From Roseburia hominis A2-183 (lineage in GTDB: Bacteria > Bacillota > Clostridia > Lachnospirales > Lachnospiraceae): a stretch of DNA of 64,000 bases. The stretch is from assembly GCF_000225345.1 (NCBI RefSeq), contig NC_015977.1, positions 3,224,001 to 3,288,000 on the forward strand, given 5' to 3'. Positions 37,293 to 56,444 of the stretch are shown one piece after another. Each line of letters starts with the position of its first letter. Within the stretch, counting starts at the first letter, position 1. A program made the translations under genes and the position numbers. A model generated the notes under the pieces. The model worked only from the letters and a program-made list of their open reading frames with translations. It did not search any database and was not told the DNA's origin.

Positions 37293-37338
37293 TATGTACC
37301 ACCTTCCTCTCAATATAAGAAAGAGGTCACAAATGCCA

Positions 37339-38967: not shown

Positions 38968-39164
38968 AGGGCGGTAACGCCCTACTGTGTTGCAAACCGC
39001 TCGCCTATACTCACGCAACACGCAAATTCCCTACGGGTAATTTGCAGAAGAATAGCAAGCACTGCCTGTGTTCCCTCACAGGCACCATTTCCGCAAATTT
39101 CTACCAAGTGAAAACTTGCAGAAATTGGCTTGCATGGGGCATATCCCCCTGTCCCCCTAAAAGC
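38968..39164 (+). other. Candidate origin of transfer (oriT)
   Basis: A gene-free region directly before mobC with three inverted repeats: AGGGCGGTAACGCCCT (38968-38983), GCAAATT/AATTTGC with an inner CCC/GGG (39022-39045), and GCCTGTG/CACAGGC (39064-39083). They are followed by the C-rich ATATCCCCCTGTCCCCCTAA (39141-39160), which resembles nic regions of Clostridial mobilizable elements. The nicking site itself is not determined. Confidence 0.65.
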
Positions 39165-39233
39165 AAAAAACAACCGCCGGCTACGGCATATTTGAAAATC
39201 TTTTATACAAATAAGGAAAGGACTGATACTGCA

Positions 39234-39575
39234 ATGGCAAACCGAGAAAGACAAAATGAACTTAAAATCTATCTCAGCGATGACGAGCAATACATCTTAG
39301 ATCAGAAATGGAAAGCCTCCGGCATGAAGAGCAAATCCGCATTTATTCGGCATCTGATTTTGTATGGCTATGTCTACGATGTAAACTACGAACACCTGCG
39401 GGAATACAACACCACGCTCGCCCGTATCGGCAATAATCTGAACCAGATTGCCAAGCGGATGAATGCTACTGGCAATGTCTATAAAGCCGATGTAAACGAA
39501 GTAAAGGAGCTGATGAAACAGGTATGGCAATCACAAAAATCCATGCTATCCAGGCAACCGTCCATAAGGCAGTAA
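39234..39575 (+). CDS. mobC: MobC-like relaxosome protein
   Basis: 113 aa, basic RHH-type N-terminus (RERQNELKIYLSDDEQYILD, KSAFIRHLILYG) and the MobC signature ARIGNNLNQIAKRMNATGNV. It helps the relaxase bind and melt oriT. AAGGAAAGG lies upstream of the ATG at 39234. The gene overlaps mobA by about 52 bases. Confidence 0.88.
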   Translation: MANRERQNELKIYLSDDEQYILDQKWKASGMKSKSAFIRHLILYGYVYDVNYEHLREYNTTLARIGNNLNQIAKRMNATGNVYKADVNEVKELMKQVWQSQKSMLSRQPSIRQ

Positions 39576-40927
39576 ACTATATCTGTAATTCCCAAAAAAC
39601 AGATGAAAGTAGTCTCATTTCTTCCTTCGGATGCAGTCCTGAAACCGCTGCCTTTGACTTCAAATTTGCTCTGTCAAAAACAAATCAGGCAGACCCCAAC
39701 AAAGCCTTTCATCTGATACAGGCTTTCGCTCCGGGAGAGGTATCTTATAAGGAAGCACATCAGATCGGTGTGGAGCTTGCCGACAAGCTGTTAGAGGGGA
39801 AATTTTCTTATATCGTTTCCACTCATATTGATAAAGGTCACGTTCACAACCACATCATTTTCTGTGCCGCAGATAATGTGAATCACGAAAAATATCATGA
39901 CTGTAAACAGACCTACTACCACATTCGCCGCCTGAATGATGAGCTGTGTTCCAAGCATCAGTTATCCGTCATTTCTCCCACAAACCAGCGTGGTAAAAGT
40001 TATAAAGAATGGACATCCGGCAGAAATGGCACCTCGTGGAAAATCAAGCTCAAGCAGGACATTGATGAAGCAATTCAAAACGCTGATACATATGAACAGT
40101 GCATGGAGCTGATACGGGCAAAAGGTTATGAAATCAAAGGCGAAACCATTGGAGAAAACGCCTTAAAGTACATTTCCTTCCGCCCCCTTGACCGGGAGCA
40201 TTTTGTCCGTGGCAGCTTAAAGTCTTTGGGTGCAGAATACACCAAAGAACGGATTAAGGAACGGGTAGAAACAAAGGCTTTAGCACAGACACAAAAACGT
40301 GTCCCATTCCCTGCCCGAAAAAAACCTCTTATCAAGGATTATTCTTCCCGAACGCTCATTGACACCTCGGAAGAAAAGTTCACGCAAAGCCCCGGTCTGC
40401 AGCATTGGGCAGCGATTGAAAATCTCAAAATCGCTGCCAGCAGTTACAGTAAAGCAGGTTCTATCATCGAGCTTGAAAAACAGATTGAAAGTAAGTCTGT
40501 TCTTGCAAAAACCGCACGGAACAGTCTTGTGGAAACAGAACGTCAGCTAAAGGATTTAGGACAGATATTGAAATACGCTGAACAATATCAGAGCAATCAT
40601 ATCTATCACATCCGTTACCGGAAATCGAAAGACCCTGACGCTTATCTCCGCCACCATGAAACAGAACTCCTGCTCCATGACGGTGCAGAAAATATGCTGA
40701 AACGCTTTGGAATCAGCTTAAAACATTTTGATATTGATAAGTTTCGTAATGATTACAATGCTCTGTATGCCAAGAAAGAAGCCTTGCAGAAAACCTATAA
40801 ATCTGCTGAAAAAGACATACAGGCTCTCAACCGAAAACTGGATAATCTGAACCAGTATCTTGACCGGACTCCGGGACAGGAACAGACCACAAACCGCAAA
40901 CCGGAAAAAGACTTTACAACGCTCTGA
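39524..40927 (+). CDS. mobA: MobA-type relaxase (MOBP-like)
   Basis: 467 aa. The relaxase domain fills residues 1-250. Candidate nucleophile Tyr19 is in HKAVNYICN, and the metal-binding His triad is in STHIDKGHVHNHIIF (His101, 106, 108, 110). The C-terminal half is helical coiled coil. It nicks oriT and leads the DNA strand into the recipient. It is intact, so the element is probably at least mobilizable. Confidence 0.92.
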   Translation: MAITKIHAIQATVHKAVNYICNSQKTDESSLISSFGCSPETAAFDFKFALSKTNQADPNKAFHLIQAFAPGEVSYKEAHQIGVELADKLLEGKFSYIVSTHIDKGHVHNHIIFCAADNVNHEKYHDCKQTYYHIRRLNDELCSKHQLSVISPTNQRGKSYKEWTSGRNGTSWKIKLKQDIDEAIQNADTYEQCMELIRAKGYEIKGETIGENALKYISFRPLDREHFVRGSLKSLGAEYTKERIKERVETKALAQTQKRVPFPARKKPLIKDYSSRTLIDTSEEKFTQSPGLQHWAAIENLKIAASSYSKAGSIIELEKQIESKSVLAKTARNSLVETERQLKDLGQILKYAEQYQSNHIYHIRYRKSKDPDAYLRHHETELLLHDGAENMLKRFGISLKHFDIDKFRNDYNALYAKKEALQKTYKSAEKDIQALNRKLDNLNQYLDRTPGQEQTTNRKPEKDFTTL

Positions 40928-41591: not shown

Positions 41592-41703
41592 TTACTTATG
41601 TAATATTTGAATTATTACATAAGTAAGATTTCAAGTCAATCTATTTTCTCTTAAATTGACAACTACACAAATAACATCTATAATATTTTTATTACAGCCG
41701 TAA
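41592..41703 (+). promoter_or_regulatory. blaI promoter with three BlaI-type operators
   Basis: Consensus promoter TTGACA (41656-41661), 17 bases, TATAAT (41679-41684). Operators TTAC-N4-GTAA: TTACTTATGTAA (41592-41603) and TTACATAAGTAA (41615-41626), together forming a 15-bp-arm dyad, and TTACAGCCGTAA (41692-41703) just after the -10. BlaI/MecI dimers bind TACA/TGTA-type dyads of this kind, so the unit is probably self-repressed. Confidence 0.8.
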
Positions 41704-41723
41704 GATTTAAGGAGGGATTTGAA

Positions 41724-42110
41724 ATGAGCGATTTACCACAGATTTCTGAAGCTGAATTTGAAGTTATGAAAATCGTATGGAAACATGCGCCGATCAGCAC
41801 CAATGAAATAACTGATAAATTATTACAGACTACGAACTGGAGTCCAAAAACAATACAAACTCTAATTAAACGTCTAGTGAACAAGGGCGTTCTGACTTAT
41901 GAAAAACAAAGTCGGGTGTTTGTTTACACTCCAGTTGTGAAAGAAAGTGAATACATCGGTCAGGAAAGTAACTCTTTTCTAGAACGATACTACGATGGAG
42001 ACATCACTGCCATGCTGTCTGCATATATAGAAAATGACAGACTGTCCGAAACGGAAATAGACACTCTCCGCTCTCTTCTTTCCAAGAGGTCAAAAAAAGG
42101 AGGTAATTAA
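41724..42110 (+). CDS. blaI: BlaI/MecI-family repressor
   Basis: 128 aa. Winged helix ISEAEFEVMKIVWKHAPIST, NEITDKLLQTTNWSPKTIQT, LIKRLVNKGVLTYEK, followed by the dimerisation and proteolysis region as in BlaI/MecI. It represses beta-lactam resistance genes until cleaved after BlaR1 signalling. AAGGAGG precedes the ATG, and the blaR1 ATG follows its stop by one base. Confidence 0.93.
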   Translation: MSDLPQISEAEFEVMKIVWKHAPISTNEITDKLLQTTNWSPKTIQTLIKRLVNKGVLTYEKQSRVFVYTPVVKESEYIGQESNSFLERYYDGDITAMLSAYIENDRLSETEIDTLRSLLSKRSKKGGN

Positions 42111-42111
42111 C

Positions 42112-43908
42112 ATGGCTGATTTTATGATACGCTTTTTAATATGCAATGTATTTATCAGCGGTATCATCGGAATTCTTTTGATAGCCAAGCGGATATTCAA
42201 AGTCAACCTATCCAGCCGGATGCAGTATAATCTATGGTTCCTGCTACTTGGATTGTTGGTAGTTCCTTTTATACCGTTCCGTTTAATTGGGTTTCCGCAA
42301 ATCCTCTCGTGGCTCAGTAGCCTGAAAAGTTCTCCTACTTCTGGCACCAGAACCGCCATAGGAGAAGCTGTTGGGATCAATCCAGCCGGAAATGCAGACT
42401 GGATGAATGACTTTGCCCTTTCGGTAAATAGTGAGACTCCATCCAGCATCGGATACATACTATTTGGAATATGGCTTGTAGGCATCCTTGCAATGATTAT
42501 ATTGGTAATCAAGTCCTCTATCCGCTTACAGAACTTGAAAAAATCTGCACTTCCCCTTCAGAACCCGGAAGTCCGAAAACTATATCATCGATGTATGAAA
42601 GAAATGGGAATTAACAGAAATATCCATGTTTACAGTACTGCATTTTTGAAATCTCCGATTATTGTGGGGCTTTTGAAACCTTGTATTTATCTGCCGATTC
42701 ATCTCATCTCAGATTATAACGAATCGGACATGCGATACATGCTGTTACACGAGCTACAGCACTATAAGCACAAAGATGCTATTGCCAACTATCTAATGAA
42801 CTTTGCCGGAGTAATATATTGGTTCAATCCTCTTGTCTGGTATGCTCTGAAAGAAATGCGTAATGACAGAGAGGTTGCCTGTGACACCTCTGTTTTAAAG
42901 ATGCTTGAGGAGGATGATTATGCAGATTATGGTAATACACTGATCAATTTTGCGGAAAAGATTTCACTTACTCCATTTCCGTTTGCCGCCGGTCTTGGTG
43001 GAAACATGAAGCAGATGAAACGGAGAATTATCAACATTGCATCTTATGAGAAGCCGACATTTATAAAAAGAGTAAAAGGTATGACTGCATTCATGTTGAC
43101 TGCTGTCCTTCTCCTTGGATTCGCACCTTTTATTTCTACATACGCAGCAGATGGAAGCCACTACCAATGGGATTCCTCTTCTGAGAATATTTCCTATGTA
43201 GACCTCTCCACATACTTCAGAGAATACGAAGGCAGCTTTGTTTTATACGATTTGGAAAACGATGCATGGAGTATACATGACATGGAGCATGCCACCTTAC
43301 GGGTTGCTCCAAACTCCACCTACAAGATATACGATGCTTTGTTCGGATTGGAAGAAGGCGTCATTACACCAGAAAATTCGTTCATTGCATGGAATGGAGA
43401 AACCTATCCATTTGAAGCATGGAACGCAGATCAGACCTTACAGTCTGCAATGAACTCCTCTGTGAATTGGTATTTTCAAGCAGTAGACGAACAGCTTGGA
43501 ACCTCTGACGTTTACAGCTATGTTCAAGAAATCGGATATGGTAACGAAAACATGAGTGGCGATTTCTCCTCTTATTGGATGGAATCCTCCTTGGAAATCT
43601 CTCCAATAGAACAGGTCGAACTTTTAACCAAGCTGCAGAATAACAGTTTCGGCTTCGCCCCTGAAAATATCAATGCAGTAAAAGATGCCATCTGCCTTTC
43701 AGCTTCCGATGCCGGAACATTCTACGGAAAAACCGGAACTGGCCGTGTTAATGGACAGGATGTAAACGGATGGTTCATCGGTTATATCGAAACTGCAGAT
43801 AATACATACTTTTTTGCCACCAACATTAGTGCAGACAGCGATGCTACCGGAGGCAACGCAACTGAAATAACCATGTCTATCTTGTCAGACATGAATATCT
43901 GGAAATAA
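42112..43908 (+). CDS. blaR1: BlaR1/MecR1-type beta-lactam sensor-transducer
   Basis: 598 aa. N-terminal membrane helices surround an M56 zinc peptidase (LLHELQHYKHKDA, HELQH at 213-217; the third ligand region is NDREVACD). A last TM helix (about 323-345) leads to an extracellular penicillin-binding sensor domain with STYK (402-405), SVN (450-452) and KTGT (540-543), the acylation triad. All parts needed to sense a beta-lactam and trigger BlaI loss are visible. Confidence 0.93.
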   Translation: MADFMIRFLICNVFISGIIGILLIAKRIFKVNLSSRMQYNLWFLLLGLLVVPFIPFRLIGFPQILSWLSSLKSSPTSGTRTAIGEAVGINPAGNADWMNDFALSVNSETPSSIGYILFGIWLVGILAMIILVIKSSIRLQNLKKSALPLQNPEVRKLYHRCMKEMGINRNIHVYSTAFLKSPIIVGLLKPCIYLPIHLISDYNESDMRYMLLHELQHYKHKDAIANYLMNFAGVIYWFNPLVWYALKEMRNDREVACDTSVLKMLEEDDYADYGNTLINFAEKISLTPFPFAAGLGGNMKQMKRRIINIASYEKPTFIKRVKGMTAFMLTAVLLLGFAPFISTYAADGSHYQWDSSSENISYVDLSTYFREYEGSFVLYDLENDAWSIHDMEHATLRVAPNSTYKIYDALFGLEEGVITPENSFIAWNGETYPFEAWNADQTLQSAMNSSVNWYFQAVDEQLGTSDVYSYVQEIGYGNENMSGDFSSYWMESSLEISPIEQVELLTKLQNNSFGFAPENINAVKDAICLSASDAGTFYGKTGTGRVNGQDVNGWFIGYIETADNTYFFATNISADSDATGGNATEITMSILSDMNIWK

Positions 43909-43918
43909 AACATAATAA

Positions 43919-43967
43919 AATCGGGTAAAGGTCATAGTCAGTCGTACAATCTTTTACCCGATTTTTT
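43919..43967. terminator. Terminator between blaR1 and the convergent gene
   Basis: AATCGGGTAAAG paired with CTTTTACCCGATT (allowing one bulged T), followed by TTTTTG on the plus strand, 11 bases after the blaR1 stop. It probably also serves the convergent leftward unit ending at 43999. Confidence 0.85.
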
Positions 43968-43998
43968 GTGTTTTAACACTATTCGTATCTTTTATTTC

Positions 43999-45507
43999 TT
44001 ATTGTAAATCACCTTCGCCTGTACTTAATCCCTCATACATCCATGTCTTTCCATTGTCGTTAGATGTAAATCTCAAGCCTCCGTAACTGCTGTATTCTGC
44101 CTTGATGATTACAGTCCATTGTCCATCGGATACTTGTGGCATCTCTGCGTAATCATAATCTGCGATTGTGTATCCTAGTTCATCAGCAATATCCGGCAGT
44201 TCCGTAACCTCTTCCATTGGAAATTCCATCTGTGTAAAAGTAACTCCGCCATCTGATGTCACATATAAAGTTGAGGCATCCTGTGAAGCGCCTGTCATAC
44301 CAATCACACCAAGATTTTCATCGTAAAATTCTATTCCCAGTGCCACGCCAATCTTGTTGTTAAACGGATTGGCATTTATCACATTCCATGTTTCACCACC
44401 ATCTGATGACTTTTCCAATTCATAATAACGGCTTCCTGCTGCCGCATCAGTAACTACTAATCTCCATCCAATTTCTTTATTCTCAGACAACCAGTAATAT
44501 ACAGAACCGTTGGAATTATCTACATACCAGGATTCTGTTTCTTTAGCATCATCAATAGTCTGCTCTTCCTCCCTGTCGATGATAGTTTCTAACGGAATCA
44601 CTTCCGGTTCCATAAAATAACGTACCGGAGTCACCTCAGATTCACTTGGAATATGAAGCGAGACTTCATATCCATAAACAGCTCCACCATTCAGTTCCGA
44701 ATAAATGGCATTGTCTGTGTTGTCCACTCCGTCACCATCCACATCACCTTGAAGATATACAAATCCTTCCATTGTGTTAAATTCCCGCTTGCCATAATAG
44801 AGAATTTCATAATCGTCTGCATATCCTTCCACAGCCCAGTTATTTACTCTTGTTTTGTAATCAGCGTTTTTCAAAATTTCAAGCATCGGCTGTAATCTCA
44901 TGTCATCATCGTAAGATTTGCTCGCAACTCCATTAATACACACAGTCATTTTTGAATCTGCATCCACATCATAGTCAATAAGGAATGTATTTTCGTCTCC
45001 ATTTTCATATCTTCCATACATATAAGTATAAATACTCTGAATTTCACCATCTTTGTCAAAGGAAAGCTGGAACTTATTTTGAACATAAAGTTCATCCGGT
45101 AAATCCAACTCTGTCTCAATGTCTTCCAAGATTCCTTCTACACCTGTCTCAAAGAAGTTGGTATGAGTAAGTTCAATTTTCTTTTGGTTACGCCATTCGT
45201 CAATCTTCCATGACAATGCACCATTATAAGGGATTGCCGAATAAATAATCCTGCCTCCAAACAAAATGGTCAGGGCAACAACTACAATACATTTTCCCCA
45301 GAACAGTTTACCTTTTTCAATTTTTTCTTCTTTTCTACTGCTAACAATTCCAAAAATGATTGTTGCTATAAGAACAACACCCAAAATCAATATTGGAATC
45401 AAGTCCACTTTCGTCCCACCGTATTGACATAGATTTGAAATGCGAATCATCAGCACCGCATATATAGCAATTCCAATAAAACCACATATATTAGAAATTT
45501 TCTTCAT
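43999..45507 (-). CDS. Membrane protein with extracellular BNR/beta-propeller-like repeats
   Basis: 502 aa. Three N-terminal hydrophobic helices (about 5-28, 36-56, 70-92), then a large outer domain. The C-terminal part has Asp-box motifs SSDGGETWNVI, TSDGGVTFTQM and SNDNGKTWMYE, as in BNR/sialidase-type propellers. I know no function; ligand or cell-wall binding is possible. It follows the 146-aa gene and shares its BlaI-type operator, so beta-lactam induction is likely. Confidence 0.6.
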   Translation of the reverse strand: MKKISNICGFIGIAIYAVLMIRISNLCQYGGTKVDLIPILILGVVLIATIIFGIVSSRKEEKIEKGKLFWGKCIVVVALTILFGGRIIYSAIPYNGALSWKIDEWRNQKKIELTHTNFFETGVEGILEDIETELDLPDELYVQNKFQLSFDKDGEIQSIYTYMYGRYENGDENTFLIDYDVDADSKMTVCINGVASKSYDDDMRLQPMLEILKNADYKTRVNNWAVEGYADDYEILYYGKREFNTMEGFVYLQGDVDGDGVDNTDNAIYSELNGGAVYGYEVSLHIPSESEVTPVRYFMEPEVIPLETIIDREEEQTIDDAKETESWYVDNSNGSVYYWLSENKEIGWRLVVTDAAAGSRYYELEKSSDGGETWNVINANPFNNKIGVALGIEFYDENLGVIGMTGASQDASTLYVTSDGGVTFTQMEFPMEEVTELPDIADELGYTIADYDYAEMPQVSDGQWTVIIKAEYSSYGGLRFTSNDNGKTWMYEGLSTGEGDLQ

Positions 45508-45527
45508 AATTTGTCTCCATCTCGTTT

Positions 45528-45968
45528 TTAGTGTCCACGTATATCCAATTCATCCAATAGAGAATTTTCACTTCCCCAAGAATATACAATGTAATAACCC
45601 CTGTCCTTTATTTCTTCCGCAAATTGTAGTGTCCCGTGATCAATCCCCTCAATGGACTGCCCTTCCTGAATTTTCACCAAACATTCCCACTCATTACTTC
45701 TGTACCTTGAATAGTAAGCATCCAATTCTTCCAAAGACAAGTCACTTCGAATTAGAATTGCTCCGAAATACTGCATTCCATTTCCGTTACCTGTCAGCTT
45801 CCCTGCCCGTGATATTGACTCTATCAATTCCGTTTTCTCTGGCAGTGGTGTTTCACATAATTTCTTTTCCACTTTATAAGCAGTGTGGTTATTTATAAGC
45901 GGAATTGAAATCACACCGCCTATTAATACAACTGCTGCCAATATTCCAACTAGTTTTAATTTCTTCAT
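45528..45968 (-). CDS. Small exported membrane-anchored protein of the bla regulon
   Basis: 146 aa with an N-terminal membrane anchor (LKLVGILAAVVLIGGVISIP) and an extracytoplasmic alpha/beta domain (MQYFGAILIRSDLSLEELDA, YIVYSWGSENSLLDE). I do not recognise the family. AGGAGG precedes the ATG, and a promoter with the operator TTACATCTGTAA lies directly upstream, so it heads its own BlaI-controlled unit. Confidence 0.7.
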   Translation of the reverse strand: MKKLKLVGILAAVVLIGGVISIPLINNHTAYKVEKKLCETPLPEKTELIESISRAGKLTGNGNGMQYFGAILIRSDLSLEELDAYYSRYRSNEWECLVKIQEGQSIEGIDHGTLQFAEEIKDRGYYIVYSWGSENSLLDELDIRGH

Positions 45969-45986
45969 GTGTCCTCCTTCCTTTTC

Positions 45987-46026
45987 TTACATCTGTAAGA
46001 TTACCACAAAACACAACTATTATCAA
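45987..46026 (-). promoter_or_regulatory. Promoter and BlaI-type operator of the 146-aa protein gene
   Basis: On the minus strand TTGATA (46026-46021), 17 bases, TAATCT (46003-45998), with TTACAGATGTAA (45998-45987) abutting the -10. Same operator form as at blaI and the PBP gene. Confidence 0.75.
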
Positions 46027-46027
46027 A

Positions 46028-47293
46028 TCATTCTTTAATTCGGTATTGATAATCGGGTATCTGCATAATTCCGTCATTTAGGATTTTATTCCCCAAATAC
46101 TGAAAACTGCCATCCTCTGCAAACCTTACCGTAAGTTCATGGGTTATGACTGCATCATCGCAAATAACCATATCACAAACCGCCTCCACCGTTAACGTGA
46201 CTGTCTCATCATCATTTTCTTTGATATCCGTGACCTCTGGCAAAGAAGTTCCAAAGAAAGTAGGTGCATAATTTCCACATCCTAATCGAGCCCAATCATA
46301 TGTGTGGTTTTCCTCGTCAAATACTGCGTACTCTCGTATCTGCTCCGCTGTTATCGGAAGATATTCCATAATCAGACTTTCGAATTCTTCTTTTGGAATA
46401 CCATTTGGATAATCTTCGGAATTGAACTTTTCTCCATATTTCATTCCATACAGATATTCAAACATTCCGTTATAATCCAATTCACTCATATTTTCCGTAT
46501 TCCAGTTGGAACACAAAAGGTTCTGTCCCTGATATCCAAGTCCCAAGACGAGGCGCTCAGACATCTCTCGCTGTTCCTCTGTCATAGGTTTTATTCTAAT
46601 CACGCTGCTTCCATCCACAATTTCACTGACCTCCGGTGGCTCCGGCACACACAACTCGTAGCAGAACCATCCCTTATCTGTATATTTCCACTCTTTTAGT
46701 CTTGTATAGGAAATGTATGAAATCCCCGGCTTATTATCAGCATTCCAGATTCCTTTTGCACTTACAACATACATATCTGTTCCATCAAAAATGAATTTCA
46801 TTCTGCCCAATCCACCATCGTTGTGGACTTCATAAATTACTGCAGAACCACTTTTCCCTTCCATACATTCTTTCAGAAAACTGTCAACACTTTCATAATT
46901 CTCCATGTTAGAATATGTTACCATTGTTGTAACCGGACATCCTGCATCCTTTAGCTTCCTCTGCATTTCCAAAACTGTTTGATCATCCAAAGCAACATTA
47001 GATGCTATCCCTTTATCTGCAGTTTCATAAATGTCAAGATAAAGTTCCATCTGCTTTTTACAGTCAGTCTCAGCTTCTTCCCTTTCCTGTTCATCTAACG
47101 GAAGGTCGTAGCCCTTTTCCCATTGTTCTGCAGCCTCTTCCTCGGCACTTTTTATCTCCTCCGTGGAAGATACATCTTCCGTATCTTCCACAAGAGATTC
47201 ATCCACAATACTATCTTCTTTTCCACAGGCACATACGAAGCATCCAATCAGAAATGCCATAATCAGCAAAATGCTTTTTTTCTTTAATGCCAT
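46028..47293 (-). CDS. Exported lipoprotein, paralogue 3 of the PBP operon
   Basis: 421 aa with a lipoprotein signal (ILLIMAFLIGCFVCACGKE, Cys about 23) and an acidic linker. The C-terminal half (IPKEEFESLIMEYLPITAEQ, GTSLPEVTDIKENDDETVTL, FAEDGSFQYLGNKIL) aligns with the next two proteins upstream. The family may be DUF6070, which I cannot confirm. Last gene of the PBP operon, 27 bases after its neighbour. Confidence 0.7.
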   Translation of the reverse strand: MALKKKSILLIMAFLIGCFVCACGKEDSIVDESLVEDTEDVSSTEEIKSAEEEAAEQWEKGYDLPLDEQEREEAETDCKKQMELYLDIYETADKGIASNVALDDQTVLEMQRKLKDAGCPVTTMVTYSNMENYESVDSFLKECMEGKSGSAVIYEVHNDGGLGRMKFIFDGTDMYVVSAKGIWNADNKPGISYISYTRLKEWKYTDKGWFCYELCVPEPPEVSEIVDGSSVIRIKPMTEEQREMSERLVLGLGYQGQNLLCSNWNTENMSELDYNGMFEYLYGMKYGEKFNSEDYPNGIPKEEFESLIMEYLPITAEQIREYAVFDEENHTYDWARLGCGNYAPTFFGTSLPEVTDIKENDDETVTLTVEAVCDMVICDDAVITHELTVRFAEDGSFQYLGNKILNDGIMQIPDYQYRIKE

Positions 47294-47320
47294 AATATCA
47301 TCCTTTCTTTCAAAGCAAAT

Positions 47321-48592
47321 TTAATGTGCTTTTGCTATTGGCGGCAGTTCCAACTCTATTTGTTCTATAGAATTGGAAAGATACCTGAAAGTTCCGTCTT
47401 CAAATGGCTGGACCACAACCGTATTCCGAAAAGCGAGATCAGAATTATAATCCGGCCATACTCCATCCACGATAAGTGTAATCGTTCCATCCGCATTTTG
47501 GGTATAGTCAACTACTTCTCCGAAAGGTGGGTATGGACTGGCATAAATCATCTCATATTCATAGCTATTGCTGCCCTCATCATATCCACAATGCTCTCTC
47601 AACTGTTCTACCGATACCGGAAAATAAGTAGTCATTATCCTTTCATATTCCTCTGCCGGAATCTTCCAACCCTCAGTTTTCAGATTTTCCCCCGTAGAAA
47701 TCCTATAAACATCTTCATACATACAAGGCATCAGAATGTCCTCCACATTGCTGCTATCCCAATCGGTAACGAGCAGATTGTAATTCACATAACTTAGTCC
47801 TGATATGTATTCTTGCGTTAATTCCCGGCAGTCTTCTGGTAGCGGTTCTATTCTCCAATACTGTCTCAAACTTGCATGTGCAATCACATATTCATATGCG
47901 TAGATAAAATATCCTTTTTCGGTCAGTTTAATCTCAGCCACATTACTTACCGAAGTTCCCTGTATTTCTGGCATACCACCTTCTCTCCACCGAATTCCTA
48001 TGTAATAGGTCTGCAACTCACCTTTCCGATAGATAAAGGTAACTGCTCCAATCAGCCCATCTCTCTGTACTTCAAATACCGTAACCATCGAGTCTTGTCC
48101 ATCCAGGTAATCTGCATAAAATGCTTCGATTGCTTCATGATTTTGCATAGCAGTATCTTCTTCAACACTTACCAGACCGGTTCTGCCCAATTGCTCCACC
48201 ACAGCTTTCCTCTGCTCTTTGGTAAATTCGCCAATACCGGAAGAGTAGCTTGGTGCATCTGCAATTACAATATCCTTATAGATTTCTCTGACCGATTCTG
48301 CTGCTGACAAAACCGTACTCTGCAGTTGCTCCTTCTCCTCTTCTGTAAGGAGATCATCACTGGCTTGCGGAATAAACCAATATGCTGACTCTGTGGAAGT
48401 TTCCGCATTCTCGGCTTCTTCTGTTTCTGCTTCGCTATTTTCGATTTCTACAGGTGGCTCCCATACTTCTTCTGCCACCTTTTGCTTTTCTGTATGCAGT
48501 TCTCCCCAACAGACCACTCCGGCTATTACGAAAATCAACAGCAGCAAAATCGGAAGACCACATCTTCTAAGCAGCCATTTCACATCTTCCAT
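47321..48592 (-). CDS. Membrane-anchored protein, paralogue 2 of the PBP operon
   Basis: About 423 aa. One N-terminal TM helix (LPILLLLIFVIAGVVCWGEL) instead of a lipobox; its C-terminal domain (EEYERIMTTYFPVSVEQLRE, EVVDYTQNADGTITLIVDGV, FEDGTFRYLSNSIE) matches the paralogues. The ATG overlaps the upstream stop (TAATG), with GGAGG 6 bases before, so it is translationally coupled; starts further upstream run into that gene. Function unknown. Confidence 0.7.
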   Translation of the reverse strand: MEDVKWLLRRCGLPILLLLIFVIAGVVCWGELHTEKQKVAEEVWEPPVEIENSEAETEEAENAETSTESAYWFIPQASDDLLTEEEKEQLQSTVLSAAESVREIYKDIVIADAPSYSSGIGEFTKEQRKAVVEQLGRTGLVSVEEDTAMQNHEAIEAFYADYLDGQDSMVTVFEVQRDGLIGAVTFIYRKGELQTYYIGIRWREGGMPEIQGTSVSNVAEIKLTEKGYFIYAYEYVIAHASLRQYWRIEPLPEDCRELTQEYISGLSYVNYNLLVTDWDSSNVEDILMPCMYEDVYRISTGENLKTEGWKIPAEEYERIMTTYFPVSVEQLREHCGYDEGSNSYEYEMIYASPYPPFGEVVDYTQNADGTITLIVDGVWPDYNSDLAFRNTVVVQPFEDGTFRYLSNSIEQIELELPPIAKAH

Positions 48593-49833
48593 TATTCGCC
48601 TCCGTATAATTCTTCCCATTCTTCTAACGTCAACCGTGGCGTATGCCATGTTTCCTCAGAATTATCCTCGGAGGGTATAATTCGATTGGATACATATTGT
48701 ACCCCGCCATCCTCCAAAGGACGAACCACAACCTCGTGGGCATATACTTTGGAATTTCCCGAATATGGAAATACCACATTAGCAGTAAGTGTAATTGTTC
48801 CATCACTGTTCTCCGTATACCCGATTACTTCTGAATATGGGTATTCCGGATACTCTACTTCTTCGAAGCCTCTCGGTTTGTATTCATAGGTCGAATCCTC
48901 CGAATCATAGACAGTTTTGGATTGCAGCGTTTCACTATCAATATTGAAATATTTCATAATAACGCTTTCAAATTCCTCTTTTGGAATCCGATAAACTGCA
49001 CTGACTGACAAATTGTCATCTGCAACATAAGGAACATACTGACCATTCACTTTTGGATAAAGAATGTCATACATATCATAGAAATTCAAATCCCCAAAAT
49101 CTTCTTCACTCCAATCCACAATAAACATATTATTCTGTTCAAAGCTGATTGGAAGAAGATATTTCCGACTCAGTTCCCTATATGTTTCATCCAATGGCTG
49201 TACTCGTAATGCGGTATGCTCCTCTGCTCCACTCAATGTAAGAACGTATAATTCTTCTGAAAACCAGACACCAGAAAACATCAGGTAACCTTCTTCTGTA
49301 TAATTCCAATACTCTGCTTGATACCTCCCAGTAACTTCTTTCTGTATTTCTCCATTTTCGTATCCATAATAGCTTCTGACCACATCTACATTTCCGTCTT
49401 TTGTGTGCAAATCGTATTTTACAAATCCGCCCAAATAGCCGACTTCAAGAATCGTTATATCTGCTTCTTCCTGTGCATCCACCTTTTCACAAAATTCCAG
49501 TACCTGCTCCGCTTCCGTCATATTCACTTGATTTCTGCTGTCAACAGCAGGATACTCGTTTTCTCCAAGACGATTTACAATACTCCGAATTATTTCCAAA
49601 TCATCTAACTTATTTTCCTCTGCTGCCTTGTCATAAAGATCTATGCAGATGTTTATAATTTCTTCTTCATTCTCCTGTTCTTCTTCTGAAACGTCCTGAA
49701 CATCAATTACTGTTTCCGAAACTGTATCTTCTTCCGGTGGTGTATCGCTACACCCCGAAATACTAAACATCAGTACAAAACTAATGACTGCTAAACCACT
49801 CTTCCAGAACCAGACTGTCTTTCTTAACAACAT
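48592..49833 (-). CDS. Exported lipoprotein, paralogue 1 of the PBP operon
   Basis: 413 aa with a lipoprotein signal (LAVISFVLMFSISGCSD). The shared domain (IPKEEFESVIMKYFNIDSET, EVIGYTENSDGTITLTANVV, LEDGGVQYVSNRI) is the same as in the two downstream genes. It overlaps the 3' end of the PBP gene by 53 bases with GAGGAGG before its ATG. A cell-surface partner of the PBP is a fair inference; no enzymatic motif is visible. Confidence 0.7.
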   Translation of the reverse strand: MLLRKTVWFWKSGLAVISFVLMFSISGCSDTPPEEDTVSETVIDVQDVSEEEQENEEEIINICIDLYDKAAEENKLDDLEIIRSIVNRLGENEYPAVDSRNQVNMTEAEQVLEFCEKVDAQEEADITILEVGYLGGFVKYDLHTKDGNVDVVRSYYGYENGEIQKEVTGRYQAEYWNYTEEGYLMFSGVWFSEELYVLTLSGAEEHTALRVQPLDETYRELSRKYLLPISFEQNNMFIVDWSEEDFGDLNFYDMYDILYPKVNGQYVPYVADDNLSVSAVYRIPKEEFESVIMKYFNIDSETLQSKTVYDSEDSTYEYKPRGFEEVEYPEYPYSEVIGYTENSDGTITLTANVVFPYSGNSKVYAHEVVVRPLEDGGVQYVSNRIIPSEDNSEETWHTPRLTLEEWEELYGGE

Positions 49834-51895
49834 ATCCGCTTCCTCCTCTTCCTTTCACATCTTCTACCATACTGATAATCAATATAGGACATTCCGTATC
49901 TTCTGCTGTAAAAATTGCAAACCATCCTAATTCTGTACCCGAAGTATCATCCTTCGATGCCTTTATTTCTGCCGTACCTGTTTTTCCTGCTAAAAGAATG
50001 TCATCTCGATGGGCTGCATATCCAGTTCCATTAGAATCATTCACAACCTTCTTTGTTCCTTCCAATACACGACTTGCTGTCTCGTTAGAAAAGGCACCCG
50101 GAATCCAATACTCAACTTCCGCTTCATTCTGATATACCAAATAAGGCTTTATTACATTTCCCTCATTACAGAAAGCAGAATAAATACATGCCATATGCAA
50201 CGGGTTCACTAAAATCTGTCCTTGTCCGTAACCGCTGTCAGCTAACTGTATTTCAGTTTCAATGCCTTCTGTATTGGAATACTGAGATTCTGCCATCTTA
50301 ATCTCAAATGGTAGTTCCTCATTGAAACCAAGCCGTATCAAAGAATTCTCCAACTCATCCGATCCAATCTTTAATGCTGCTTTTGCGAAATAAATATTAT
50401 CAGAATAAATCAAGGCATTCTCTAAAATGACTGGTTCATACGCATGAAGCGTTGTTACATGATATGAACCCCACGATGCATCTTTTTGCCAACTTAATCC
50501 TACGTTCCCGTAATCTTCCATTGGATCGATTGCTCCTGATTGTAAACCAATCGCAGCTATAATTGGTTTGAAGGTAGATCCCGGACACCACACTTGCCGG
50601 AACCGATTATACATTGGCTTATTCTCGTCCTCGTTAAGTACAGTCCACTGCTCACTCGATAATCCCATAATAAAATCGTTATTGTCATAAGCCGGTGTGC
50701 TGACCAAAGCCAATACCTCTCCGGTATAATGATTTATGGCTACCGAGCAGCTTTTATCTTCCTTAAACTGTTCGTACAAGGAAACCTGCAAATCAGTATC
50801 TATCGTAAGCCGGATGTCCTGCCCATGCTGTACCAGGATACAAGCCAGTTCCTCCTTCTCTTTATCTTCCGAATTTACAATGTAAATCCTGCAACCGTTC
50901 TGGCCTTTCAGTTCTTTCTCGAACAAGCCCTCCATTCCGCTTCTGCCGATTACACTATTGGCTGTATAACCTTCTCCTGCATGTTCCTCTAAATCTTCCG
51001 CAGTAACGCTTTGAACATACCCGACCAAATGCGCAGCGGCTTCCCCTAATGGGTATTCACGCACTTCAACATCAGATATCATCACTCCGGGAATCTCCAG
51101 CAACTTATCATGCCTTTCTTTCTCCTTTAAAACTTCTTCCTCTGGACTGATAGACATTAACTCAATTTCTTCCACTCTTGGAATCGTTTTAATAGGTACA
51201 AAAGAATCATCCTTTACCCACTTTGCAGACAGGTTCTTTTCTATCGCTTCCGTTGTGATTTCCAATAGTCCTGCAATCTGTGCGATTGCTTCCTCTCTGT
51301 TTTCCAACTTGCCCGGAACAATTCCAACTGAAGATGCTGTACCTTTTCCTGCAAGGACACGTCCGTTCCTATCCAGAATTTCTCCTCGCTCTGCCTGTGT
51401 AGTAGAAACTCTTACTTTATCTGCAGAAGTCAGATTAGGAAAAATCATGGAATCATCCCAAACCAATTTATATCCTTCTTCTCCATTTATAAAAAATGCC
51501 TCATTCTCAAAGCTGATAGTTCCTGCCACTGTATCAAACGAAGTCAAATATGTTACTTTTTTATCTTCCTCCACATACTCGACATTTTTTATCGACATGT
51601 TTTGCATTTCAATTCCCTCATAAATAGTGGAATTTCTCTTCAGAAAATCTTCCTTACTGATATATCCAGATGACTCCAAATCAATCATTGCATACATTTC
51701 TTCGTATTCTTGTTTTGGAATATGCATCATATACTCTACTAAGATAGTATCTGGTGTTTTACACGCATTTTTTCTTTTATATAATACTGTTGCACTCACA
51801 ACTACTCCAATCAAAGTAATTGTTAACATTAACACTATAATGCCCAACATTTTTCTATATCTTTGTATTCTTTTGGTTCTATGTTTTGCCTTCAT
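49781..51895 (-). CDS. MecA-like class B penicillin-binding protein (transpeptidase)
   Basis: About 704 aa. One TM helix (about 16-38), then a MecA_N/NTF2-like domain (EYMMHIPKQEYEEMYAMIDL..), a PBP dimerisation domain (RGEILDRNGRVLA), and a transpeptidase with STFK (440-443), SDN (498-500) and KTGT (638-641). This order is that of PBP2a/PBP5fm-type low-affinity enzymes. Under a BlaI-type operator in a mobile element it probably provides inducible beta-lactam tolerance. GGAGGT lies 4 bases before the ATG at 51895. Confidence 0.92.
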   Translation of the reverse strand: MKAKHRTKRIQRYRKMLGIIVLMLTITLIGVVVSATVLYKRKNACKTPDTILVEYMMHIPKQEYEEMYAMIDLESSGYISKEDFLKRNSTIYEGIEMQNMSIKNVEYVEEDKKVTYLTSFDTVAGTISFENEAFFINGEEGYKLVWDDSMIFPNLTSADKVRVSTTQAERGEILDRNGRVLAGKGTASSVGIVPGKLENREEAIAQIAGLLEITTEAIEKNLSAKWVKDDSFVPIKTIPRVEEIELMSISPEEEVLKEKERHDKLLEIPGVMISDVEVREYPLGEAAAHLVGYVQSVTAEDLEEHAGEGYTANSVIGRSGMEGLFEKELKGQNGCRIYIVNSEDKEKEELACILVQHGQDIRLTIDTDLQVSLYEQFKEDKSCSVAINHYTGEVLALVSTPAYDNNDFIMGLSSEQWTVLNEDENKPMYNRFRQVWCPGSTFKPIIAAIGLQSGAIDPMEDYGNVGLSWQKDASWGSYHVTTLHAYEPVILENALIYSDNIYFAKAALKIGSDELENSLIRLGFNEELPFEIKMAESQYSNTEGIETEIQLADSGYGQGQILVNPLHMACIYSAFCNEGNVIKPYLVYQNEAEVEYWIPGAFSNETASRVLEGTKKVVNDSNGTGYAAHRDDILLAGKTGTAEIKASKDDTSGTELGWFAIFTAEDTECPILIISMVEDVKGRGGSGYVVKKDSLVLEEWFSSH

Positions 51896-51937
51896 CGTTA
51901 CCTCCATTTCTTATTCGTATCAATGTACTACGCTTAT

Positions 51938-52005
51938 ATATTACAAGTGTAAGATTTTGAAGCAAAAAAATTTACTCCCTTTCGTTATAAATATTACACC
52001 CGTAA
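51938..52005 (-). promoter_or_regulatory. PBP operon promoter with two BlaI-type operators
   Basis: TTGCTT (51965-51960), 16 bases, TAATAT (51943-51938) on the minus strand. The operator TTACAAGTGTAA (51941-51952) overlaps the -10, and a second, the 20-bp dyad AATATTACACCCGTAATATT (centre 51994-52005), lies upstream of the -35. Confidence 0.78.
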
Positions 52006-52036
52006 TATTTATCAGTCAAGTTCTTATTCAAAAAGA

Positions 52037-52080: not shown

Positions 52081-52308
52081 TTACTCTGCCGCTACAAACT
52101 CCATCTTCATAAATTCATGATCCGTCAATTCCTTTAATTTTGCAAGGACACATAATGACAATTCAACCATCTCATCATCCTCCAGATGTTTCAGTGTCTT
52201 ATTGATACCATTTATGACATTTTTTCTGCCTCCCACATCTGAATCTATACCTTCTTCCATAAAAATACTGATTAAATTACTCTCTTCTACGGTAAATCTC
52301 TTATTCAT
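52081..52308 (-). CDS. Transposon-transfer assisting protein (TTRAP family)
   Basis: 75 aa, helical: KRFTVEESNLISIFMEEGID, KHLEDDEMVELSLCVLAKLK, LTDHEFMKMEFVAAE. This family sits next to the large ArdC-like gene in Clostridial ICEs; function is known only by association with transfer. The start is coupled to the end of the upstream gene with GGGAG 9 bases before the ATG. Confidence 0.8.
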   Translation of the reverse strand: MNKRFTVEESNLISIFMEEGIDSDVGGRKNVINGINKTLKHLEDDEMVELSLCVLAKLKELTDHEFMKMEFVAAE

Positions 52309-52311
52309 CAC

Positions 52312-55300
52312 TTACATCTCCCTCTGACTTTTCTTTTCATTTTCTTGAACATCATGTTCTTTCGATTGCCCTTCTACCTGTGATTTTTTCTCCGCAAGAC
52401 GGGATTTTAAGGAAAGCCTTACCGTAGGCTTCTCCTCCATTCTCTTATTTTCTTCCCTTTGGGCTTTCTCCCCAACACCATTATTCAGCACATTATCAAT
52501 CATATTATAATTCTGTTCTTCTGCCTCCTCAATCTTGGCAAGCGGCTTATACTCTGTCAGTTTTTCCAGAAGCTCCGTTGCTCGTTTTATTTCCTCTGGT
52601 ACAGCTCCCTCCGAAATAATGTCTGCAAGCCACGTTGTTAAATGTCCGGTATCGCCCTGTTTTATGGATTCTGCAAGCTCTGATACATTCTCGGTCATAT
52701 TTCTTGTACTATCGTGATACAGTACAGTATCATAATCGTAGGAAAGTCGGTCAAGTTCTACTGCAAGCTGTTCCTCTTGTGGCAAGTCCGGCATACGCAG
52801 TTCCCACACTCTTGCTTCCATTTCTTCACTCATCACGCCATCTATCTCCATATCGGGCAATTTAGCCACCAGTTCCGTAATGACTTCCATTGCCTGCGGA
52901 TTGTTTTTAATATCAGGAACATAGTCCAAAACCCCAAGGTCAATCCTCTTTCCAGATAAAACATCAATCTCGTAATCCTCGAAGGGTTCCGCCCCTCTCC
53001 CTAGGATATTGATTCCGATTGCCGGAATACCATTCATCCGCTCTGAAGGTATCTGCTTCCAGATTGCTATAGCTTCATCCACCGTAGGAATATTCTCATA
53101 ACACTCACCAAGATTATGAAATTCTCCACATTCCGAAACAGTTAAAGTTACTTCTGCGCTCTCCTTTTCCTGCTCTCTTACCTGTCTGACGCCCTCCAAA
53201 TATTCTTCCATCTGTGGCAGATAGGATTCCAGCGTACCTGTTCGTTGGGCTGTAATTGGATTGATGTCAACTTTTACTTCTCCGATATGAAGTCCATCCT
53301 CATTAAAGGCATTAAATAAATCGTCCTCCCGTTCCGCTGTGGAAAGTTCCACCACCACATCAAGGTCAGAACCTTCATGCTCTAATCCCCTGCATCTGCT
53401 TCCTGTTACAGCAACATCCACGATTGTTGCATTAATATCATACTCTTCAATCTTCGCCTGCACATGGCATTTCACAGTTTCCTCGATTTCTTCCGGATTC
53501 ATTTCACTAATATCGTGGAATAATTCCCCGGTCTTTGCCTTAAAATCTGCCACCACACTGCTTGGTGTACTCTCCGGAATAATACGATTTGCTTCCTCTG
53601 CTTTTTCCATCAGTCCATCATAATCCATCGGTATCAGTTCATCTTCTCTTTGGATATTTCCTTTTGCACCATTGTAATCCGGCTGTGACTTCAAATCCTC
53701 TAAAATATCATGCAAGGCTTCCCTTATCGTCACATCAGGATTATCATAAATTCCTCCGTCAATCTCCTTATAATCAGCTCCCATAATGGAATAATCATAA
53801 CCGCCATCCACTTCCTGAATGCTGATAAAACGGTCTGCAATAGAAAATGCCAGTTCTGTTTCCTGTTCACTTTCCAAAGTTTTTTTCATTTCCGCAAGCA
53901 CCTGTTCTGTTTCATCGCCAAGATCAATGATTTCATCTCCATCTATTTCCGGTTCTGTCTTTTGGACATTGTGTCCAGAAGTGTCCTGCATTTCTTCCTT
54001 TTCCGGTGTCTGCTCCCGTAAAAAATCCGGTATTTCCGTATATCCAAAAGAATCCACAAAATGAGCCGTATTCTGTCCGTTCTGATGAAGCACCACTATA
54101 TCGCTGACAGATAGCGAATGTCCTCTGAAATCTTCTGGGTGGTCAAGGTTGAATTTTTCAAAGATTGCCTCTAAAGTTGCCCCCTGCGTCTCTTTTTGCA
54201 GTTCAGATAATTCGCCCACATATAAAAGTGTATAATTCTCTGGTTTAATTGCATCAAAATTATCTTTTGTAATGCCCATACGCTTTAAGGATTCCGTCCC
54301 CTCAAAACGTAAGGAATCTAATTCCGGATTAGGCTTTAATTGATAAATTCCATATTTATCAGTACTAGCATATAGGAGCTGCTCTTTTCTTGCCATTTCA
54401 GGTGTAATAACAGATCCGTCCTCATAGTTAATAGATTCCACCCATGTGATACCTAATTCTTTTTCTATTTCAAATTCCAAATCAGTTCCATAAAAAGCAT
54501 TATGAATTTCTGCCACATCAGTATCTGAAATAGGCTCTGAGGTCTTGAATACCGCAGTTCTATCCCCACCCATTTCTTCTATATCGACAGCCACAACTGG
54601 ATACGGGTATGTATATTCTCGCTCCTGTTCGTCCATTAAGATAAGTGTAATCTTAGTCTGCTGTTTCAATGCTTTATTCCATGTTTCCTTTTCAACCCCA
54701 AAGATACCTTCATGCTCTTCTATACGCTCCCTGCTTTCTGCCAATGATTCCGCACCGTCAGTATGAAGCAAATATACAGGCAAATCATGTTCAAATAATT
54801 CCAATGCTTTCTCTTGTGTTAATGGCAGCATTTCATTCCATTGATAGCCATATTCCCTCATTTCCGACAAACCAATCATCGGATCAGGCAGGGCATCAAT
54901 CTCCGCCTTTGCATCAATTATGGTCAATGCCACATCCTGTTGGGCATACTGCTCCCTATATGCCAGTTTCTCTGCAAGTTCCCTTGTTTTATTCATATCA
55001 TCAAGTTTATAGGCATAATTTACAATCAGATTTCGCTCCTCAGACGTGAAAATATTTTTTTCTGCTTCCAACTGATTGATAAGTTGTTCTGCCTGCCCCA
55101 TGACAGATAAATTGGTATCAATGGGGTGTTCCATTCTTTCCTTTACATCAATAAGCTCGTCTGTATCCATGTTATAGCGGACATCAATATGATATTCCTC
55201 CGCTTCTTCCGTCTGCTCGTCAGCAAGTTCGGTAGTCCATGCTCCTTTGCTTTCAAGATAAGATGATATATTCGATTTATCCTCTTCATTCATGGTAGAA

Positions 55301-56340
55301 AGAGCGGATATAAGTTCTGCACTGTCCATTCCACGGACACTGACAAGATTGTATTCTGAAAAATCCTCGTTATGTACCAGCAGAATGCTTTCCTTTCCAT
55401 GTTCCTGCTCCATCTCCCGGTTAAGCTGAAGCTCCTGCATTGCCCCCTCAATGCCTGTAATCAGTTCTGAAGCTGTCTTTCGGATTGTATCAAGGGAAGA
55501 TTTCAGCTCTTTCATATTCCTGCCGCTGCTCCAGCCTGCGATATATCCAAAGGAATAATCGGATGTATCTATACCGAAATGCTGGCACACTGTAAAAGCC
55601 ACACTCTCCGCTTCCACTTCCTTTGTATTCCTGTCCTTTACCGGAATATCCATGCTCTGATTAACTTCTTTATCATGCAGCCTGGAATGAGCCACCTCAT
55701 GCACCATTGTTTTCAAAGTCTGGCTTTCGCTCATATTTTCCTGAACAGCAATCCGTTTTTCTGCTGTACTGAAATACCCTTTGGAATCGCCGGGAATATC
55801 TTCAAATGCAATCGGAACAGGAGAAATATTCATAAGCGCCTGGACAAAATCCTCATATCCCTCCACCGTAGATAACAGCTCATTCACTTCCAGTTCCGGA
55901 ATAGGCTTGCCATCCGTCTGCGATACATCAAAAACAGATACCGCACGAAAGGCAGGAATGGTAACCTCTGTTTCCTCTTTCTGCGGCATACCGTTTTCAT
56001 CAAACATCATTTCTCCCGTTACAGGGTCTAACTTATCACGTTCCTCTTTGATTTTATAAGGAGCTGGTGCAAGAATACGGATTGCCTTTTCTCCTTTATT
56101 GACGTGCCGCTCAAAGTTCTTCTGCCACGCCTGATAACCTGCCACCAGCGTAGCTTCCGGCTTCTGCATGGCAATCAGCAGCGTATTATTAAAACTGTAA
56201 TTATGAAATTTTGACATGGTACTGAGATAGCTTTTATATTTTTCACTCTCAAAAAGCTCTTTCAAACCAGCTTCCAGCTTATCCGTAATCTCTTTGACTT
56301 TTTGCTTTTCACTCATGTAAACGGTATTTTTATCTTCCAT
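52312..56340 (-). CDS. Giant ArdC-like multidomain protein of the ICE
   Basis: About 1342 aa. N-terminal ArdC-type ssDNA-binding domain (YLSTMSKFHNYSFNNTLLIA, GYQAWQKNFERHVNKGEKAI), then a zincin-like metallopeptidase with MVHEVAHSRLHD (about residue 220). Central helical repeats follow, with modules of YodL/DUF4316 kind. Around residue 985 there is a nucleotidyltransferase motif GSRCRGLEHEGSDLDVVVEL (GS-x9-D-x-D). ArdC-like proteins protect incoming single-stranded DNA from restriction. GAAAGGA precedes the ATG at 56340. Confidence 0.85.
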   Translation of the reverse strand: MEDKNTVYMSEKQKVKEITDKLEAGLKELFESEKYKSYLSTMSKFHNYSFNNTLLIAMQKPEATLVAGYQAWQKNFERHVNKGEKAIRILAPAPYKIKEERDKLDPVTGEMMFDENGMPQKEETEVTIPAFRAVSVFDVSQTDGKPIPELEVNELLSTVEGYEDFVQALMNISPVPIAFEDIPGDSKGYFSTAEKRIAVQENMSESQTLKTMVHEVAHSRLHDKEVNQSMDIPVKDRNTKEVEAESVAFTVCQHFGIDTSDYSFGYIAGWSSGRNMKELKSSLDTIRKTASELITGIEGAMQELQLNREMEQEHGKESILLVHNEDFSEYNLVSVRGMDSAELISALSTMNEEDKSNISSYLESKGAWTTELADEQTEEAEEYHIDVRYNMDTDELIDVKERMEHPIDTNLSVMGQAEQLINQLEAEKNIFTSEERNLIVNYAYKLDDMNKTRELAEKLAYREQYAQQDVALTIIDAKAEIDALPDPMIGLSEMREYGYQWNEMLPLTQEKALELFEHDLPVYLLHTDGAESLAESRERIEEHEGIFGVEKETWNKALKQQTKITLILMDEQEREYTYPYPVVAVDIEEMGGDRTAVFKTSEPISDTDVAEIHNAFYGTDLEFEIEKELGITWVESINYEDGSVITPEMARKEQLLYASTDKYGIYQLKPNPELDSLRFEGTESLKRMGITKDNFDAIKPENYTLLYVGELSELQKETQGATLEAIFEKFNLDHPEDFRGHSLSVSDIVVLHQNGQNTAHFVDSFGYTEIPDFLREQTPEKEEMQDTSGHNVQKTEPEIDGDEIIDLGDETEQVLAEMKKTLESEQETELAFSIADRFISIQEVDGGYDYSIMGADYKEIDGGIYDNPDVTIREALHDILEDLKSQPDYNGAKGNIQREDELIPMDYDGLMEKAEEANRIIPESTPSSVVADFKAKTGELFHDISEMNPEEIEETVKCHVQAKIEEYDINATIVDVAVTGSRCRGLEHEGSDLDVVVELSTAEREDDLFNAFNEDGLHIGEVKVDINPITAQRTGTLESYLPQMEEYLEGVRQVREQEKESAEVTLTVSECGEFHNLGECYENIPTVDEAIAIWKQIPSERMNGIPAIGINILGRGAEPFEDYEIDVLSGKRIDLGVLDYVPDIKNNPQAMEVITELVAKLPDMEIDGVMSEEMEARVWELRMPDLPQEEQLAVELDRLSYDYDTVLYHDSTRNMTENVSELAESIKQGDTGHLTTWLADIISEGAVPEEIKRATELLEKLTEYKPLAKIEEAEEQNYNMIDNVLNNGVGEKAQREENKRMEEKPTVRLSLKSRLAEKKSQVEGQSKEHDVQENEKKSQREM

Positions 56341-56444
56341 AATTCGATTGTCCTTTCTTTTTTCCACGCAAAAAAGACAACCATCTCTGATTGTCTTTTT
56401 CGATATGCCTATTCAATTTGCATCTTTTTTAGATTGCTTTTTTA

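Follow-up and report, generated by a model that had tools for sequence, protein, structure and literature searches.

The closest described relatives of the system discussed here are the staphylococcal mecI-mecR1-mecA and blaI-blaR1-blaZ systems, which likewise combine a BlaI-type repressor, a BlaR1 sensor-protease and a MecA_N transpeptidase; in staphylococci palindromic operators lie at the promoters and the target operon is divergent. The low-affinity enterococcal penicillin-binding proteins (PBPs) of class B1, PBP5/PBP4, are a further point of comparison. A gene cluster with these components is found at positions 41592 to 52005 of a 64,000-nt stretch of the genome of Roseburia hominis A2-183 (NC_015977.1, positions 3,224,001 to 3,288,000), which is called the window hereafter. 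A sequence-only reading had proposed a regulon of nine genes on a mobile element; eight genes in three units are counted in the present analysis. The cluster is quite likely a mobile BlaI-BlaR1 regulon that consists of a sensor/repressor pair, an operon of a class B1 PBP with three proteins of the family DUF6070, and a unit encoding proteins of 146 and 502 amino acids (aa). This reading is built on the operator sites, the uniqueness of their strict form in the genome, the promoter geometry, the intact catalytic motifs, the recurrence of the arrangement with and without the PBP and the nearly identical copies in two genera, all of which are observed here.

The palindromic core TTAC-N4-GTAA was found by pattern search six times in the cluster, starting at 41592, 41615, 41692, 45987, 51941 and 51994, exactly where the sequence-only reading had placed it. 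The window holds seven such cores in total against 0.76 expected, and the seventh, at 33450, is situated within an open reading frame (ORF) and is devoid of the extended flanks of the other six. The whole genome, a single contig of 3,592,125 bases, contains 37 cores and 136 matches to the control pattern read backwards. At the rate outside the cluster only 0.09 cores are expected per 10.4 kb, so that the six found there (Poisson P of about 7e-10) stand far above the genome background, as had been anticipated. A strict form, T[AC]TTAC-N4-GTAA[GT]A, was derived from the flanks of the six cluster sites themselves; it matches six times in 3.59 Mb, six of six in the cluster, and its reversed control does not match at all. 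Since this form was fitted to the sites it recovers, a fairer test is provided by stretches of other genomes sampled by DUF6070, which are described below. The whole-genome search with the strict motif gives no additional regulon member outside the cluster, and one near match with an intact core, at genome position 1875875, was dropped as it lies within an ORF. When one mismatch is permitted, 29 matches are observed in the window against 24.3 expected, which is no excess, and for this reason no further sites are claimed there.

The first unit, on the + strand, is preceded by a canonical promoter (TTGACA-17-TATAAT, 41656-41684) with an operator at the presumed start-site region (41692-41703; the whole feature spans 41656..41703). 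Its first gene, blaI (41724..42110, +), encodes a repressor of 128 aa that scores 120.2 bits with PF03965 (cut-off 22.6), and its best score with the NCBIfam exception models for named BlaI/MecI proteins is 121 bits, below the cut-off of 180; by these profiles it is a relative of the BlaI/MecI repressors and none of the named alleles. According to the accessible part of one report, the BlaI of Staphylococcus aureus is cleaved at N101|F102 (PMC9834060); the matching region in the window is MLSA-Y, that is, A-Y with Y at P1', and an aromatic P1' residue (Y/F) is present in 42 of 43 BlaI copies, the type of the remaining copy not being printed. The second gene, blaR1 (42112..43908, +), encodes a full-length M56 protease with a class D-like sensor domain, 598 aa in length, which scores 705 bits with NF000326 (cut-off 400). 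Alignment with S. aureus BlaR1 covers residues 9-596, including STYK, SVN and KTGTG of the sensor domain. The motifs HELQH, STYK and KTGT(G) are thus in place, as previously noted, and HExxH, ST[YF]K and KTGT are present in 42 of 42 BlaR1 copies.

The second unit comprises the PBP gene and the three DUF6070 genes, all on the - strand. Its promoter, TTGACT-17-TAATAT (51990..52019, -), is overlaid by the operator at 51994-52005, which spans the spacer and the -10 hexamer, and a second operator is located downstream (51941..51952). The PBP (49781..51907, -; 708 aa) contains MecA_N, PBP_dimer and Transpeptidase domains (53, 130 and 185 bits, all above cut-off), the combination by which class B1 is defined, and carries STFK, SDN and KTGT; among the related PBPs, KTGT is retained in 76 of 76 and SDN in 74 of 76. 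The chains of solved structures that it matches include PBP5 entries at about 370-384 bits. This gene had been described as divergently placed, which is not the case: the PBP operon runs toward blaR1, and the first unit is convergent with the second and third, both of which are on the - strand.

The three paralogous exported proteins encoded behind the PBP were rightly recognized as a triplet within its unit, but they are not nameless, for all of them belong to the Pfam family DUF6070 (PF19546), scoring 234-460 bits against a cut-off of 27. Paralogue a (48592..49833, -; 441 bits) and paralogue c (46028..47293, -; 460 bits; 421 aa) appear by eye to be lipoproteins, each with a lipobox, and paralogue b (47321..48592, -; 234 bits) appears to have an N-terminal membrane anchor. 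By inspection, paralogue b probably starts at 48592, with an ATG overlapping the stop codon of paralogue a, instead of at 48649. Paralogue a itself starts after an AGGAGG, and both this ribosome site and the start codon lie within the PBP gene, at its 3' end; when the frames are counted from their first start codons, 39 of 43 loci show an overlap of 52-82 nt between the two. This overlap suggests translational coupling, so the DUF6070 proteins are probably coupled to the PBP at the level of translation. A structure model of DUF6070 has a predicted local distance difference test score (pLDDT) of 84 (83 in the C-terminal half) and gives only middling matches to known folds, an NTF2-like/cystatin-like fold being considered for the C-terminal half; such matches are no indication of a new fold. 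The best sequence relative among solved structures has an E value of 0.64. The N- and C-terminal halves show no similarity to each other, and an internal repeat was discarded accordingly. Among 7995 candidates scored, 2670 proteins are relatives at E 0.001.

The third unit starts with the gene for the 146 aa protein (45528..45968, -), followed by that for the 502 aa protein (43999..45507, -). By eye, the former has one N-terminal hydrophobic segment and the latter several; the 502 aa protein also gives a weak BNR/Asp-box signal. The operator at 45987..45998 lies just ahead of the start codon of the 146 aa gene, where a weak TTGATA-17-TAATCT was read by eye, outside the promoter scan. Across the window and its relatives (L007, L010, L079, L083; L numbers denote related sequences throughout) this operator-controlled slot holds the 146 aa protein together with proteins of 502, 408 or 441 aa, and elsewhere a 412 aa protein or different small membrane proteins. 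For the 502 aa protein, 346 of the scored candidates are relatives at E 0.001, and the 120 listed are mostly 44-53% identical over almost the full length; these numbers and the near-full-length identity indicate that the family is probably present also outside this cluster.

Conservation of the sites was examined in related loci. A genome scan confirmed 238 stretches with the PBP, of which the best 80 were used together with the window, and at least 150 bp of upstream DNA was required, so two of the 81 were dropped as too short; BlaI was counted only if it reached 150 bits and had the same minimum of 150 bp upstream. Of the 79 PBP loci, 60 carry a site in their upstream DNA, and so do 35 of the 41 BlaI loci, while each of 12 control palindromes occurs at 0-2 PBP loci and 0-5 BlaI loci. 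The remaining 1.42 Mb contain 35 sites, part of which belong to third units, and the controls there range from 5 to 77. In 43 of 59 PBP promoters the operator begins 9 nt ahead of the first base of the -10 hexamer; at blaI it lies 8-13 nt after the -10 start in 35 of 36, and all of these promoters match the consensus with a score of 11 or 12 out of 12. Among the PBP loci with at least 6 kb of downstream DNA (n = 58; counts are lower bounds), DUF6070 is present in 29, BlaRI in 36 and both in 25, that is, BlaRI accompanies 25 of the 29 DUF6070-positive and 11 of the 29 negative loci (Fisher P 0.0003, without correction for relatedness). The expected synteny between the PBP and the paralogues is therefore conserved in part of the relatives and not in all.

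The DUF6070 sample consists of 32 of 35 stretches (L141-L172), which were chosen by DUF6070 and not by the motif; the other three, from genus-mates of the window's genome, were already in the PBP set. They contain 46 strict sites, and 41 of these fall in the 19.1 kb of DNA upstream of PBP, DUF6070, BlaI and 146 aa genes, out of 491 kb in all, with none for the reversed control; some of the stretches are close copies of the window element or of each other, so not all are independent. A core site lies no more than 260 bp upstream of DUF6070, or of a PBP leading its operon, in 16 of the 32, and two more are cut by contig ends. Moreover, DUF6070 stands behind a site of its own, with no PBP in the stretch, in seven (L145, L148, L151, L153, L157, L158 and L165), and BlaI-BlaR1 is found in five of these seven (L145, L148, L151, L157 and L158, the last two from the same genus). 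DUF6070 is thus likely a direct target of BlaI rather than a passenger. In L146, L147 and L169, which are nearly alike, an extra site separates the PBP from DUF6070. In one genome (G341) BlaI-BlaR1, with its site, is on a different contig from the DUF6070-PBP pair, which makes control in trans likely in that genome. Among 392 genomes of the order, 29 contain PF19546 (28 above cut-off); it was detected in 20 of 173 genera and in several families, and in none of 14 controls.

A number of results weigh against the proposed regulon or limit its extent. No exact site is found upstream of 19 of the 79 PBP genes and 6 of the 41 BlaI genes, and 14 of the 32 DUF6070 stretches have no site within 260 bp upstream of DUF6070, five of them with only fragments or no labelled gene, and in the other nine the gene is full or fused. 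The geometry of the PBP promoters is partly circular because the operator overlaps the hexamer and itself supplies its TAAT; that of the blaI promoters is free of this circularity. Besides that of R. hominis there are 28 DUF6070-positive genomes; in 21 of them the strict pattern matches 66 times in total and its reversed control 36 times, three of the 21 having no strict match, and in several genomes the pattern is no commoner than its control. The signal there thus lies in the placement of the sites and not in their number; in 14 stretches around solitary strict sites of DUF6070 genomes, the sites are mostly inside ORFs, and those of L185, L187, L190 and L193 are at BlaI or PBP. As for the proteins, the PBP falls below the NCBIfam cut-offs for PBP2a (NF000237, 424 against 750 bits) and for PBP4(5) (NF051842, 586 against 700 bits), the latter being its best NCBIfam match, and consequently it is regarded as related to both within class B1. 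At the self-cleavage site of BlaR1, placed by eye, P1' is Leu in the window and Leu or Ile in the 32 of 42 copies whose type is printed, while S. aureus BlaR1 has Phe, which is a real difference. Judged by the distribution of the operator sites, DUF6070 probably belongs directly to the regulon in one part of its range and is apparently free of it in another.

The mechanism proposed for this regulon is as follows. BlaI dimers would occupy the T[AC]TTAC-N4-GTAA[GT]A palindromes at the -10 hexamer of the PBP promoter, at the start-site region of their own promoter and at the third unit. By analogy with the BlaRI family, a β-lactam outside the cell would acylate BlaR1, its inner metalloprotease would then cleave BlaI, and the loss of BlaI would open all units jointly. 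The class B1 transpeptidase, for which low drug affinity is suggested by its context, could continue wall cross-linking when the drug has blocked the sensitive PBPs. The DUF6070 proteins, tethered to the membrane, might, from the same context, assist outside it. It is proposed, more tentatively than the regulon itself, that DUF6070 could represent a new class of β-lactam-induced, tethered surface proteins that shield wall synthesis as partners of a class B1 transpeptidase, or alone in those clusters that have no PBP; they would constitute a resistance or tolerance factor distinct from β-lactamases and low-affinity PBPs, spread by mobile elements in gut Lachnospiraceae.

Other explanations must be weighed against this proposal. 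The regulon may be real and its natural signal wall stress or competitor compounds instead of drugs, in which case the cluster would be a general envelope-maintenance kit with DUF6070 as the main worker. The five stretches in which DUF6070 has its own site and BlaI-BlaR1 but no PBP are in keeping with such a kit, as are the matches in several families of the order and the fact that Pfam and NCBIfam profile searches reveal no separate β-lactamase gene among the proteins of the cluster; however, the sensor domain can be aligned with that of BlaR1, which binds penicillin (STYK, SVN and KTGTG included), and BlaRI is near the PBP in 36 of 58 loci of a sample drawn by the PBP, so this explanation is considered unlikely.

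It is much less likely that BlaI controls only blaI-blaR1 and the PBP, and that DUF6070 and the 146 and 502 aa proteins are passengers gathered by the element. The sites directly ahead of DUF6070 where no PBP is present are at odds with that view, and so are those ahead of the 146 aa slot in several relatives and the intervening site of L146, L147 and L169, which amount to about one case; the variation of the 146/502 slot among close relatives, the 29 of 58 loci in which no DUF6070 gene follows the PBP and several DUF6070 genes elsewhere without a site would agree with it. Hardly any credence is given to the idea that the palindromes are sites of another regulator or due to chance, even though 37 cores occur genome-wide and the genome has two more matches to Penicillinase_R elsewhere (83 and 23 bits), for in this genome the strict form does not occur outside the cluster and the site positions at blaI recur across species. 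A chance origin in particular was rejected on the window and genome counts, the upstream enrichment in relatives and that same confinement.

One operator type does occur at all three units, as the sequence-only reading held, but not all six sites belong to them, since those at 41592-41603 and 41615-41626 lie on a separate leftward promoter (TTGACT from 41639, AATAAT ending at 41611, - strand; operators within 41592..41626). No obvious gene is located behind this promoter in the window. It is directed at the 3' end of an HTH_3-type gene adjoining the relaxase, and any transcript would therefore be antisense or non-coding. Both cores are kept in 10 of 10 aligned sequences, picked as carriers or close copies, despite diverging DNA beyond them; among five further sequences compared, the pair is missing in L014 and L017 and partly degenerate in L027, L033 and L079. 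In several relatives the leftward slot is held by an orphan gene for an OmpR-type DNA-binding protein (Trans_reg_C; identified by Pfam for five), which the window does not have: L027:19614-20030, L079:21551-21961, L144:14507-14926, L146:12464-12877 and L149:12661-13083. This protein is perhaps a second regulator under BlaI control.

The location of the cluster on a mobile element is borne out by its surroundings and by a near-identical copy in another genus. To its left are a Tn916-type integrase (36060-37391, -), MobC (38868-39575, +) and the relaxase (39524-40927, +), and to its right, in a mobility-associated region (52081..56367), TTRAP (52081-52311, -) and an ArdC/LPD protein of 1351 aa (-); a group II intron reverse transcriptase lies within the element at 58756-60510. 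The host had been taken for a gut Clostridium and is in fact Roseburia, although Clostridium fessum also harbors the element, with 99.1-99.8% identity over the aligned parts, including the relaxase, blaI-blaR1, the PBP and TTRAP. In that copy (L193) the window region of about 43.9-47.2 kb is replaced and that of about 58.7-61.0 kb, with the group II intron, is unaligned. Its blaI-blaR1 genes are present past an insertion and had been hidden by a short flank, which is why the BlaRI neighborhood counts given above are lower bounds. A second cassette in this C. fessum genome (L142) comprises blaI-blaR1, the 146 aa gene, the PBP, one full DUF6070 gene and a DUF6070 fragment; of the two cassettes, one is interrupted between blaR1 and DUF6070. 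Among plasmids no near match to the cluster was found, only PBPs of less than 60% identity at the protein level in 499 records, and a search of four cluster proteins against defence-system families gave a single negligible match. In addition, the ORFs 1716-2156 and 11706-12230 of the window share identical first 40 residues and are likely copies of a small transposase.

Searches of the literature, with most subscription journals and preprints outside their coverage, returned no paper naming DUF6070, none joining BlaR1, BlaI, Lachnospiraceae and penicillin-binding protein, none joining Roseburia, penicillin-binding protein, β-lactam resistance and mecA, and no report of drug induction or tolerance for this cluster. 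A safety paper on Blautia producta mentions blaR1 twice (PMC8146736). The sequence-only reading supposed that the BlaRI systems described so far govern one or two genes, and a nine-gene regulon with surface accessory proteins looked undescribed to it. The first of these points is not supported, since the accessible text on Mycobacterium tuberculosis names atpH and sigC besides blaC in the BlaI regulon (PMC8265638) and that on Clostridium thermocellum gives three operons for one BlaI (PMC8457756), and the claim of novelty is lowered accordingly. What appears to be new is the membership of DUF6070 in the regulon, the conserved architecture and the mobility, the link between DUF6070 and a BlaI operator being new within the literature searched. 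An uncharacterized exported family is thereby tied to a well-understood antibiotic-sensing switch, and a drug-inducible wall-synthesis module that crosses genera nearly unchanged is predicted for common gut commensals. The role of DUF6070 becomes directly testable with one drug, one repressor and three promoters.

Compared with the known systems, the cluster resembles those of M. tuberculosis and C. thermocellum in that one BlaI serves several targets; as far as the available text of both reports extends, the targets differ from those described here, and the C. thermocellum motifs, GTCTAT/GACTAT, are unlike TTAC-N4-GTAA. DUF6070 itself is named in Pfam as a family of unknown function, and all three paralogues exceed its cut-off. 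With the enterococcal PBP5/PBP4 the PBP shares its class and its best score, that with the PBP4(5) model, but unlike them it stands behind BlaI-type operators on a mobile element. The staphylococcal systems share the repressor, the sensor-protease and the type of transpeptidase, whereas in R. hominis the target operon is convergent, the PBP is below the PBP2a cut-off, and DUF6070 and the 146/502 unit are added.

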